From Salinivibrio kushneri (GTDB lineage: Bacteria; Pseudomonadota; Gammaproteobacteria; Enterobacterales; Vibrionaceae), in assembly GCF_005280275.1 (NCBI RefSeq), contig NZ_CP040021.1:955001-1019000 (forward strand): a DNA stretch of 64,000 nt, written 5' to 3'. Below are positions 120 to 31,541 of the stretch, in pieces. Position numbers and translations under genes: made by a program. Every line of letters starts with the position of its first letter. The first letter of the stretch is position 1. The notes beneath the pieces are model-generated. The model saw only the letters and a program-made list of their open reading frames with translations. It did not search any database and had not been told where the DNA came from.

Positions 120-1256
120 CTAGCTTTGTAGATATTGTCCGTTTACGATCGTCGCTTGAACGTTGATTGCTCGGTCGAAAATGGCAAGATTCGCAACTTT
201 CCCCGGACGAATGCTGCCATAGTGTTGTTCGATACCGATTGCGCGAGCGGGATAGAGCGTAGCCATCCGCAAAGCTTCATCCAAGGCGATCCCTACATGC
301 TCAACACTGTTATAAATCGCTTGATCCATCGTCAGAGCCGAGCCGCCAAGCGTGCCATTTTCATCAACACACTTACCGTCACGGTAATATACTTTCTTAC
401 CTACAAAAATAAAGTGATCCATGTCGGCTCCTGCTGGTGCAACCGCATCCGTAACCAACACTAATTTCTCACCTTTTACTTTATGTGCGAGACGAATGTT
501 AGGGTATGAAACGTGAAAGCCGTCAGCAATCACGCCAGTGTAAACATCCGGTGTATCGTAGATAGCACCGACGACGCCTGGCTCACGGCCTGATATAGAG
601 GTCATCGCGTTAAACAGGTGCGTGGCAAAGGAAATGCCATGGGTAAAGCCTTGCTTAGCTTGTGCGTAAGTGGCATTGGTATGGCCAGCAGAAACCACGA
701 TACCAGCTTGCTTAAGGGCTTGAATATGTGACGCAGGTGCCAATTCAGGCGCGAGGGTGACTTTAGCAATCACATCCGCATTGTCGCACAAGTAGTTGAT
801 CATCTGATCGTTGCTTGGACGAATATAGTCAGCACTGTGTATCCCCTTTTTTTCGATATTCAAATAAGGGCCTTCAAGGTGTAACCCCAGCGCCTGATGG
901 GGGTGCTGTTGTTGGTACGTCCGCATGGCGCTGATGGCGGCTTGCATATCGGCATCAGAGCTAGTGATCAGAGTGGGGAGAAAATTGGTGCAACCTGACT
1001 TAAGGTTAGCCTGATGCATGGTCGCGATGGTGTCAGGCGTAATGGCATCATTAAACATCACCCCGCCACAGCCATTAAGCTGAAGGTCAATGAAGCCTGG
1101 GCTGACTAATGCACCGTTGAGCGCACGCGTGGCAATATTATTGGGTAGGGCGTCTTGTCGACAGACGGCGTCAATCAGGCCTTCTCGAATCACGATGGCA
1201 TGATCATCCAACACCTCATGGCCGGTAAAAATCCGGCAGTGAGTTAACGCATACAT
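120..1256 (-). CDS. nagA: N-acetylglucosamine-6-phosphate deacetylase
   Basis: NagA removes the acetyl group from GlcNAc-6-phosphate to give glucosamine-6-phosphate in the cytoplasm, the first committed step after PTS import. The protein is 378 residues, close to the E. coli length. Visible family motifs are LQLNGCGG (about 59-65), the metal ligand Glu128 in LHLEGPY, His192 in AGHTNAT, His213 in ATHLFNAM, and the catalytic Asp270 in VTDAVAPAG; these keep a constant offset of three from E. coli NagA. AAGGA sits a few bases before the ATG. It is the middle gene of nagB-nagA-nagC, with 11 bases to nagB and 7 to nagC, so it should be induced with them through NagC and CRP. Confidence 0.96.
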
Positions 1257-28522: not shown

Positions 28523-31240
28523 ATGAAACGCCAATGTCTCTGTTTGTTATGGCTGGCTCTCATCTTTCCTTGCCTACCTTTGCAGGCGCATGATGCGTTG
28601 CTCTCATCGTTTCAGTCATACGGCGGTCTTAATGGCCTCGGTGATGTCCGTGATGTGGCGGTGCAGTCATCTGGCGGTATGTGGCTGCTGGATAGCCAAG
28701 GACGCATTTATTTTTTTGATGGCCATCAGCGTCATCCACTCAACGATGCCCTTACCTTGCCTGATGAAAAGATACTGACCATTGCGTATGCTCACCAGGC
28801 GCTTTGGATGGCAGGGAGAGAACATGTTTATCGTTTCCAGCCAAGTACCAATACGCTTACCGCTTTCCCATTGCCCGATGCCGTTGCCCAGACGCGCACT
28901 GATCATGCGCCTCACCCCCGCCAATCGCCACGACTGGCGACGATCAATAATACGCTATGGCACATTCAAAGCGGCCAGATAAGCGTCTATCAACGGGAAG
29001 ATAAGGCATTTCACGTGTGGCGAACGGGTCCGTGGCGTGCCAATAATGTGTGGTTCACGGCGGGCCATCGACTGTTTGCGGTCGGGACAAGCTTATATCA
29101 ACTCAGCGACGGGGGAATACGCCAACTGACACGTTTTTCTACGCCGATTACAGCGATCACGGCGAAACAAGACAGAGCATGGGTCAGTACCGAAAAGCGT
29201 GTTTATCTGCTGGCATTGTCGGGCAATCAAGTACAAGCCCAGCACGTGCTGAATACACGTGGGAACTACCATAGAATGACGGTCGGCTCGGGCGGGTTGT
29301 GGGCCGCCAATCATAACGGGTTATTTCGACTTTCCCTCGATGGCGTCGCGACGCCGGCTTGGCAGCCAGGCGATCAGCGGATTGCTGGCCAAAGCATCAC
29401 TTTTTTATGGGCAGATTTTGAGGGGGGGATCTGGTTTTCAACCGATCAGGCGACACGTTACCGTGCACCAGGGCAACGTTGGATCACTCATCAACACCGC
29501 GTCTTCCCCAGCGTGTTTACTCATGGTTTTATGGCGCAAAGTAACCCTTGGGCGCTAGAGGGGGACAGTTGGCGCGATTTAAGTGGGTATCGCACTCTAC
29601 CGTCGCCCTCGGTCGTACCAAGCGACAAATACCTCAGTGCTACCCGAGACGCTCAGCGCCTTTGGTGGTCAACACCGTCAGGTACGCAAGGGATTAATAC
29701 GCTAACAGGGGCAAGCATCGTCATCCCCGATCGGTTGGCAACCCTGCCTGCTGAGCATTTGTATACTGATGCCGAGGGCACAATCTGGTTATCGGTTGAC
29801 GATCAGGTGATGCGCTACTGGCCGGACACAAAGACGTTAGTCAGTTATGGCACACGATGGCAGCCTCATCACGCGGGTAAGGTGTTAGGCTTTTATGATG
29901 ATGGCCGCGGCAATGTTTGGATCCGTGATCAGCATGGGTTAACACGGTATCGAGAGGGGCAGTTTAAGTCGGTCCCCTTGGCAAAAGACCGGCTACCTGT
30001 GCAGGATATGTATACCGACGAACGAGGTCGTTTATGGCTCACCAGTGCCCATGGCTTATACCAATACGATCCTAGCGCGCCAGACGCCGCGTCATTGGTT
30101 TACTTGTCACTACCCGGTGAGCGATTCCACTGTGTCACGGGTAACCGCGATGGCATATGGGCCTACAGTAACCAAGCATTGGTACACATTGCTCCGCGAG
30201 GGTTTGTGCGCACATTTCGTCTCCCCTCTGAGGCGGAAAAAGTAGCCTGTTACGCGACCCAAGCCCATCAGCTCACGCTGCTGGCAGGGGATTATACCTA
30301 CCAGGTAGATACTGACCAATTGGCGTTTTCTTTGCGTAAACCGCCAAACGTCGTGATTGGCGCTGTTTGGCAGCAACGTAAGCGTTGGCGTATTGGCCCT
30401 CGACAGCAAACGGCGGTGACATTACTCGAGCAAAGCCCCGCCTATCTCGCGTGGGGGAGTTGGCCACCAGAACGACAAGTGACACGCGTACATTATCAGC
30501 TCGTGCCTTATCAGCACGCTGGGCAGCCAATGGCTGATAAACTGGCTGCTTGGCAGCAAACCGGTAGTGATACGATTTCCTTGGCCAATATGGTGGGCGG
30601 GCACTATCAATTACGTATTGCTATCCCGCGTGATGGCGCCTCCCATACTGTGTTAGACATCTCTGTCTCTCTGCCTCTATTGCCTCACATTATCAATGGC
30701 ATGGTCCTGGCCTGCTTTGTGAGTGTGGTGCTTGCGGCTGTCATCTTAGCCTTGAGACAACGTCACTTGTCGGCGGTGCACATAGACACATCGAGCGTGC
30801 CCACATCTGGGTCGCGGGATGACATCTCAGCTGCCACATATCCTCTTGGATGTGAATCGCCCTCATCACTGGCACTGGATTCAGGCCAAGCCAATCAGCA
30901 ATGGACCGCCGAGTTTGAGAATGTTATCGCGGCTAGGTACCAAGATCCTGACTTTTCAATGGCTCAGATAGCTGGCGCGTTAGCGATGTCAGAGCGTAAT
31001 TTGCAACGTAAGTGTCGACAGTATTTTGGTGTGACAGTGACCGCTTATGTGACGCAGAAACGGCTGAGTGATGCCGCTACGCGCTTGCAGCATGGCCATG
31101 CCGTGGCGGATGTGGCTGAAGCGTGTGGCTATCGCGATCCGGCCTACTTTAGCCAACGGTTTAAAAGCTATTTTGGTGTCAGTCCCTCGCATTATCGACG
31201 CGCGACGACTGATGTGACCGTGGCAGATATCGATGACTAG
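28523..31240 (+). CDS. Membrane-spanning AraC-type regulator with periplasmic beta-propeller
   Basis: A 905-residue single-chain signal protein. Visible in order: a signal sequence (LCLLWLALIFPCLPLQA, about 6-22); a long region of propeller-like repeats ending in patterns such as DFEGGIWFSTD, DAEGTIWLSVD, DGRGNVWIRDQHGL and DERGRLWLTSAHGL; a beta-sandwich like Y_Y_Y (about 640-715); one membrane helix (about 722-744); and a C-terminal AraC-type DNA-binding domain (about 792-893) with FSMAQIAGALAMSERNLQRK and VADVAEACGYRDPAYFSQRFKSYFGVSP. No kinase or receiver domain is present, unlike Bacteroides hybrid sensors. So a periplasmic ligand, perhaps a glycan, probably drives DNA binding directly. 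Ligand and targets are unknown; neighbours do not suggest a pathway. Confidence 0.88.
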   Translation: MKRQCLCLLWLALIFPCLPLQAHDALLSSFQSYGGLNGLGDVRDVAVQSSGGMWLLDSQGRIYFFDGHQRHPLNDALTLPDEKILTIAYAHQALWMAGREHVYRFQPSTNTLTAFPLPDAVAQTRTDHAPHPRQSPRLATINNTLWHIQSGQISVYQREDKAFHVWRTGPWRANNVWFTAGHRLFAVGTSLYQLSDGGIRQLTRFSTPITAITAKQDRAWVSTEKRVYLLALSGNQVQAQHVLNTRGNYHRMTVGSGGLWAANHNGLFRLSLDGVATPAWQPGDQRIAGQSITFLWADFEGGIWFSTDQATRYRAPGQRWITHQHRVFPSVFTHGFMAQSNPWALEGDSWRDLSGYRTLPSPSVVPSDKYLSATRDAQRLWWSTPSGTQGINTLTGASIVIPDRLATLPAEHLYTDAEGTIWLSVDDQVMRYWPDTKTLVSYGTRWQPHHAGKVLGFYDDGRGNVWIRDQHGLTRYREGQFKSVPLAKDRLPVQDMYTDERGRLWLTSAHGLYQYDPSAPDAASLVYLSLPGERFHCVTGNRDGIWAYSNQALVHIAPRGFVRTFRLPSEAEKVACYATQAHQLTLLAGDYTYQVDTDQLAFSLRKPPNVVIGAVWQQRKRWRIGPRQQTAVTLLEQSPAYLAWGSWPPERQVTRVHYQLVPYQHAGQPMADKLAAWQQTGSDTISLANMVGGHYQLRIAIPRDGASHTVLDISVSLPLLPHIINGMVLACFVSVVLAAVILALRQRHLSAVHIDTSSVPTSGSRDDISAATYPLGCESPSSLALDSGQANQQWTAEFENVIAARYQDPDFSMAQIAGALAMSERNLQRKCRQYFGVTVTAYVTQKRLSDAATRLQHGHAVADVAEACGYRDPAYFSQRFKSYFGVSPSHYRRATTDVTVADIDD

Positions 31241-31274: not shown

Positions 31275-31312
31275 TAAAAGAAAACGTGGCATAACCGGGG
31301 AGCCATGCCACG
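31275..31312 (-). terminator. Leftward terminator downstream of the HIT gene
   Basis: ATGCCACG and CGTGGCAT pair over an 8-bp stem with a 12-base loop, followed on the minus strand by TTTTCTTTT. No T tract exists on the plus strand, so it does not end the AraC-type regulator gene. Confidence 0.75.
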
Positions 31313-31410
31313 GGTGTCAACGACACCTTCGCTTGCTGCCGAGGGCGGGGAACCGCCCTGGTAAAAAAGGGGCTGGTCAGATGTGTACTCCCTTAACCAG
31401 TGGCGTCAAT
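31275..31410 (-). ncRNA. Candidate small RNA or structured 3' UTR, minus strand
   Basis: Read leftward, four stems follow one another: CTGGT/ACCAG (31400-31396 with 31377-31373), AGGGCGG/CCGCCCT (31359-31353 with 31348-31342), GGTGTC/GACACC (31327-31322 with 31318-31313) and CGTGGCAT/ATGCCACG (31312-31305 with 31292-31285). The last is followed by TTTTCTTTT, a good terminator. Its loop holds CTCCCC, which could pair with Shine-Dalgarno sequences. TATATT at 31413-31408 might be a -10 box, but no good -35 is seen. It could also be the processed 3' end of the HIT transcript. I do not recognise a known RNA family. Confidence 0.4.
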
Positions 31411-31541
31411 ATACCCTAATGTGAGCTGATATTGCTATGACGAAACCGCCAATCTTATTTTGACAGATCTTCGGATAACCTATTTATAAACAATTACTTA
31501 TGCCGTTTTATTTTGGTTTTGACGAAAATAACGAAGTGCAC

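Follow-up and report, generated by a model that had tools for sequence, protein, structure and literature searches.

A TfoS ortholog lacking the kinase segment in Salinivibrio kushneri, and the range of kinase segments in TfoS of Vibrionaceae

Introduction

TfoS is a regulator that was reportedly described in Vibrio in 2014. Two kinds of regulator resemble it: hybrid two-component systems (HTCS), in which the usual domain order is sensor-kinase-receiver-AraC, and the group formed by ToxR, TcpP and CadC, which carry winged-helix domains. On chitin, TfoS is a direct activator of the small RNA tfoR (PMC11856585). V. cholerae requires both TfoS and ChiS on chitin, each of which binds the tfoR promoter (PtfoR) (PMC11856585, PMC13316777); in that species ChiS recruits TfoS and also brings the promoter to the membrane, and the source leaves undecided whether chitin is sensed by TfoS itself (PMC11856585). 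V. cholerae tfoS is VC2080, and VP0854 is likewise listed as tfoS (PMC12282291); TfoR lies between VC2078 and VC2080 (PMC8545128), and VC2076-2078 are feoCBA (PMC5816637). The purified DNA-binding domain of V. cholerae TfoS comprises residues 997-1114 (PMC13316777). Two-component systems have been suggested as a possible origin of hybrid regulators, in a source that also lists TfoS (PMC10269533).

Here we analyse a 64,000-nucleotide stretch of Salinivibrio kushneri DNA (hereafter referred to as the window; contig NZ_CP040021.1) that encodes a TfoS protein with very little between its membrane helix and its DNA-binding domain, and compare this protein with TfoS across the family Vibrionaceae.

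Results

Identity and genomic slot

The gene is an intact ORF of 905 codons (Table 1). Orthologs of tfoS share a slot in Vibrionaceae beside znuBCA, and usually also beside mepM; outside Salinivibrio, feoB usually follows. Judged from its sequence and surroundings, the window protein is an ortholog of Vibrio TfoS (VC2080) in a form without the kinase segment. The slot, the HTCS-type sensor, the helix, the AraC domain, the convergent tfoR gene and ChiS are common to Salinivibrio, V. cholerae (VC2080) and V. parahaemolyticus (VP0854), whereas the long segment that separates helix and AraC domain in Vibrio and Aliivibrio TfoS is absent from Salinivibrio. V. cholerae TfoS is thus about 200 aa longer than the window protein, given where its DNA-binding domain lies (PMC13316777). 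Identity between the window protein and Vibrio TfoS is only ~20%. In PMC12282291, clustering places the VC2080 gene family almost entirely in V. cholerae; in our view this results from clustering such diverged sequences, because identity between genera is about this low and the same source lists VP0854 as tfoS too.

Protein matches at E 1e-12 were obtained in 30/61 genomes, 4 of them outside Vibrionaceae and to the AraC part. Within Vibrionaceae, 26/37 genomes have a TfoS match, which includes the DNA-binding domain in 24. A second collection comprised the best 80 of 485 confirmed TfoS loci; the genomes behind it and the set of 61 overlap. Synteny by itself would point to a role in feo or znu regulation, a reading rejected because VC2080 is tfoS and tfoR is present.

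Domain architecture of the window protein

The protein has only two hydrophobic segments by hydropathy, residues 5-23 (signal-like) and the membrane helix. In addition to HTH_18, Pfam returned HTH_AraC and Reg_prop (E 1.7e-6); HisKA, HATPase_c and Response_reg were absent from the matches listed up to E 1, and Y_Y_Y was undetected by Pfam. A profile of 5 Salinivibrio sensors matched the solved sensors of Bacteroides HTCS (3ott, E 7e-16; 3v9f, 7e-11; 4a2l, 1e-10), these E-values being sums of stretches that are individually weak (best single 3ott stretch, 0.0015); one 3ott stretch covers the C-terminal part of the sensor (profile 457-719). The same profile aligns over residues 46-718 with the sensors of five kinase-bearing Photobacterium orthologs (hhalign 99.8%, E 5e-29; hhalign E-values here are pairwise, from single comparisons rather than database searches), and a profile of 41 TfoS family members matches 4a2l at E 9e-72. 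The predicted propeller is therefore supported by homology to solved structures.

The window protein has in common with the Bacteroides hybrid two-component systems (4a2l, 3ott, 3v9f) a propeller/Y_Y_Y sensor, by profile, and an AraC output, but has no kinase, receiver or phosphotransfer domain; its linker occupies the place of the kinase segment in other TfoS. Like ToxR, TcpP and CadC (transmembrane transcription regulators; PMC10269533), it would be a single chain that has its sensor outside and binds DNA while anchored in the membrane, and unlike them it combines a propeller sensor with an AraC domain; Pfam assigns the DNA-binding domain to the AraC type, and a winged-helix domain as in ToxR is absent. 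This architecture is not new, TfoS having already been described in Vibrio.

A preliminary description, made from the sequence of the gene, had proposed a propeller and Y_Y_Y-like sensor, one membrane helix and an AraC output in one chain, with no kinase, phosphotransfer or receiver domain. The HTCS-sensor profile matches, hydropathy and HTH_18 bear out the former, and the Pfam results agree with the latter. Its further proposal, a membrane-anchored regulator working like ToxR or CadC, is probably right too. As a whole, its reading of the architecture stood; the identity as TfoS, the adjacent target tfoR and the likely chitin cue had been missed.

Selection differs along the gene. Against the window gene, dN/dS was 0.08-0.11 for the sensor (computable in 2/4 pairs), 0.04-0.13 for the DNA-binding domain (3/4 pairs, one with saturated dS) and 0.41-0.83 for the linker (3/4 pairs). 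Within the genus, tfoS is under purifying selection where this could be computed.

Two observations concern related features. Cysteines C537 and C576, both periplasmic, are invariant in all 41 aligned TfoS and could form a disulfide. The other Reg_prop protein of the S. kushneri genome (L058:8921-11896, G000 C2) has 991 aa, with Y_Y_Y and, at its end, GGDEF.

Table 1 Features of tfoS, tfoR and the region between them and the candidate operator in the window
Feature	Position	Strand	Evidence
tfoS, 905 aa	28523..31240	+	ORF; orthologs in same slot of Vibrionaceae
Signal-like N-terminus of TfoS, residues 1-23	28523..28591	+	Hydropathy; predicted only
Periplasmic sensor of TfoS, residues 24-722	28592..30688	+	Profile matches 3ott, 3v9f, 4a2l, Photobacterium TfoS; Reg_prop
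Y_Y_Y-like region within TfoS sensor	residues ~645-718	+	Profile matches
Membrane helix of TfoS, residues 726-744	30698..30754	+	Hydropathy mean 2.84
Short cytoplasmic linker of TfoS, residues 745-793	30755..30901	+	Linker lengths in 41 sequences; relaxed dN/dS
AraC DNA-binding domain of TfoS, residues 816-893	30968..31201	+	Pfam HTH_18 E 6e-23
tfoR small RNA, convergent to tfoS	31275..31366	-	Rfam RF02100, 70.6 bits, cut-off 70, E 5.5e-17
Terminator-like hairpin of tfoR	31285..31312	-	12 pairs, then T-rich tail
-10-like box TATATT of tfoR	31408..31413	-	39 bp after conserved element start
Candidate TfoS operator upstream of tfoR	31434..31452	-	Conserved element, 17/17 and 67/67 promoters

tfoR beside tfoS

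The preliminary description had seen no obvious target operon adjoining the gene; the target is instead an RNA gene, tfoR, separated from the tfoS stop codon by 34 bp. The window tfoR lies only 0.6 bits above the Rfam cut-off, and it folds better than 200/200 shuffles. Matches to tfoR occur in 27/61 genomes, 26 of the 27 over the cut-off. In all 24 Vibrionaceae genomes in which the DNA-binding domain was matched, tfoR is encoded by the other strand, no more than 438 bp from where the TfoS match ends, a count compared by hand that includes a tfoR below the Rfam cut-off (G023) and two broken TfoS frames (G019, G022). Among the best 80 of 485 loci, 67 have an exact tfoR core within 1.2 kb, convergent with tfoS, and 8 further loci have tfoR by Rfam (7 of these 8 at ~2.5 kb); at 2 of the 80 only 111 and 136 bases of sequence follow tfoS.

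Exceptions are found in both directions. Three loci (L115, L116, L121) encode TfoS with a DNA-binding domain, yet have no tfoR at the Rfam cut-off in the fetched DNA. Conversely, 3/61 genomes (G010, G011, G046; loci L188, L189, L187), one of them outside the family, have tfoR in the znu/mepM-feoB slot without a TfoS match, and tfoR must therefore be driven by something else there. Two genomes of the window's genus (G003, L043:2699-5095; G006, L045:9094-11361) lack both the DNA-binding domain and tfoR: the frame is open through sensor and helix, and the ORFs end in the linker, with similar ends 5-6 bases before a HIT-family gene. This joint absence may reflect one deletion, and it lends no separate support to the link between the two genes because the DNA-binding domain and tfoR lie together.

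A candidate operator

Upstream of tfoR, an element of the form nTG[GT]CG...TnATA precedes a -10-like box by 38-40 bp in 67/67 promoters (shuffled mean 1.4), namely those loci of the best 80 of 485 with an exact tfoR core within 1.2 kb. Because a first set (17/17) that overlaps the 67 had supplied the motif, 67/67 is no independent test; moreover, the species are related and the shuffles preserve single-base content only. We consider this element a likely TfoS operator, with binding by TfoS predicted from its conserved sequence and position. The three tfoR promoters without TfoS (G010, G011, G046) lack the element (0/3), a weak comparison given that absence is often expected by chance and that one promoter sequence has only 126 bases. 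A promoter scan returned no sigma-70 match at the window tfoR.

Further upstream, at ~31515-31525 (-), lies the motif CGTCAAAA, similar sequences of which are found in several relatives; it may belong to a ChiS site. A ChiS-site motif common to PtfoR and the cbp promoter is only suggestive, the cbp match being loose.

The kinase segment across TfoS

Lengths, tree and Pfam content were obtained for 41 mostly full-length sequences, comprising the window protein and 40 hand-picked from the best 80 of 485. The distance between helix and AraC domain is 52-59 residues in Salinivibrio (n=4; 52 aa in the window protein), 75-92 in Enterovibrio and Grimontia (n=5), 72-83 in V. albus and Vibrio sp. HA2012, 122 in P. 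jeanii, 250-298 in Vibrio and Aliivibrio (n=24), 303 in P. lipolyticum and 422-429 in other Photobacterium (n=4). The kinase-free domain order noted in the preliminary description thus recurs within Vibrionaceae, in Enterovibrio, Grimontia, V. albus with Vibrio sp. HA2012, and P. jeanii. At E 0.001, Pfam found HTH_18 in all 41, Reg_prop in 36, Y_Y_Y in 10, HATPase_c in 7, HisKA in 4 and Response_reg in 4.

The four long Photobacterium proteins (L118, L121, L123, L174) have a homologous sensor and AraC domain, and tfoR lies beside three of them (not found in L121). All four contain HATPase_c and a receiver (below the Pfam cut-off in L121), and three contain HisKA. By eye, the phosphoacceptor histidine is missing in L174 and the receiver aspartate in L121, both residues being present in L118 and L123 only. 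These two, from Photobacterium aphoticum (L118) and P. obscurum (L123), are apparently complete sensor-kinase-receiver-AraC forms of TfoS beside tfoR. P. lipolyticum TfoS has HisKA and HATPase_c and no receiver. Taken together as a profile, 16 of the Vibrio segments can be aligned to the ATPase portion of two true kinases (hhalign 94.6%, pairwise E 6.7e-8), and we therefore read the Vibrio segments as decayed kinases.

In a quick tree built without the linker, midpoint-rooted and with a long Salinivibrio branch, three changes between presence and absence of the segment are reconstructed; well-supported branches force at least two for the kinase-free group.

A predicted chitin pathway in S. kushneri

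A ChiS-like protein of S. kushneri contains HAMP, HisKA, HATPase_c and receiver domains; its gene precedes a chitobiose-type operon (binding protein, GH9, GH20) by ~1 kb. The genome also encodes two GH18 chitinases, whose genes flank an LPMO gene, two TfoX-family genes, one behind a c-di-GMP-I riboswitch, and members of the ComEC and DprA families, which are common outside competent species too. A near full-length ChiS match is present in 6/8 members of the genus (the G001 copy has three internal stops); ChiS is in pieces in G003, and G006 has no ChiS match at E 1e-150. In Salinivibrio, feoB is no longer in the tfoS slot; in 6/8 genus genomes a TfoX-family gene is found no more than ~5 kb from it (L105, G000 C1 ~1725-1730 kb).

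Pairing between tfoR and the tfoX leader was unsupported by simple duplex energies: in the core test on the window's own genome, 424/1000 shuffles were as good. In the best of six tfoX cases, one of which paired tfoX and tfoR from different genomes of one genus, 27/1000 shuffles were as good, and in the full-length duplex test 53/300. We found no description of competence in Salinivibrio, and no relevant experiment in this genus, in the literature searched, which was mostly without subscription papers.

Discussion

The window protein is very probably TfoS acting on tfoR together with ChiS, a kinase-free regulator leading from chitin to competence. By analogy, we infer that the action of TfoS and ChiS at PtfoR in V. 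cholerae would hold in Salinivibrio too, with chitin as the likely cue. The periplasmic sensor would respond to chitin oligosaccharides, directly or through partners, and the signal would reach the AraC domain by way of the one membrane helix and the short linker that follows it; the switch would probably consist of an altered pairing or position of two AraC domains or subunits at the operator. Bound to the element (31452-31434), the AraC domain would start tfoR transcription together with ChiS, and TfoR RNA would permit TfoX translation and hence DNA uptake.

The neighbourhood could instead indicate that this TfoS homolog regulates metal genes, znu for zinc uptake or feo for iron, since znuBCA and mepM adjoin the window gene and feoB follows in relatives. 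This is scarcely credible: in S. kushneri tfoS and tfoR have kept their place although feoB lies elsewhere (C1:1725354), three genomes (G011, G017, G031) have znu and feoB together without TfoS, and the conserved element is kept by tfoR, not by feo. That Salinivibrio tfoS is a relic that no longer works also seems very improbable. The sequence has diverged far, and 2/8 genus members (G003, G006) share the deletion of DNA-binding domain and tfoR along with a fragmentary or missing ChiS, although both assemblies are themselves fragmented; the other 6/8 have intact tfoS ORFs, dN/dS is low in sensor and DNA-binding domain, and tfoR and the promoter element are kept.

The direction of change in the kinase segment is a separate matter. 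The kinase-free form most likely arose by loss of the segment from an HTCS-like ancestor. We infer this direction from the usual order of domains in HTCS and from the linkers of Enterovibrio and Grimontia, which start like a kinase segment and retain a stretch resembling the pre-kinase stretch of Photobacterium. Two points favour the kinase-free form as the older one, with segments gained by other TfoS rather than lost in Salinivibrio: the midpoint root sets nine kinase-free rows of Salinivibrio, Enterovibrio and Grimontia on one side, and the Salinivibrio linker has no recognizable kinase remnant. We nevertheless regard such a gain as unlikely: besides the linkers and the usual HTCS order, two further kinase-free cases are nested inside kinase-bearing groups in the tree.

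With segment loss as the preferred direction, a reasonable though not firm case can be made that living Vibrionaceae TfoS preserve the steps from a phosphorelay hybrid to a direct membrane regulator, in which movement of the sensor alone would drive the AraC domain. The series would run from kinase and receiver (four Photobacterium) through kinase only (P. lipolyticum) and a decayed kinase (most Vibrio) to none, the last step being represented by Salinivibrio/Enterovibrio/Grimontia, by V. albus with Vibrio sp. HA2012, and by P. jeanii, with target RNA and promoter element little changed throughout. A tree that forces no more than two changes, and whose root is not firmly placed, slightly lowers the odds of such a stepwise series. 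No description of a kinase-loss series in TfoS was found in the literature searched, mostly without subscription papers.

Because the segment can be missing while the target and the promoter element stay, the signalling step of TfoS would require no enzyme and no phosphate transfer. As to the regulator itself the finding is settled, in that it is known and its target lies in the same window; the evolutionary series of the kinase segment is what is new and worth keeping, and it suggests signalling without phosphorylation. The conserved element provides a candidate operator for the whole TfoS family, and the kinase-free form is the smallest version of TfoS to study. This natural series bears on the means by which a periplasmic signal reaches DNA through TfoS, and on whether the cytoplasmic segment matters.
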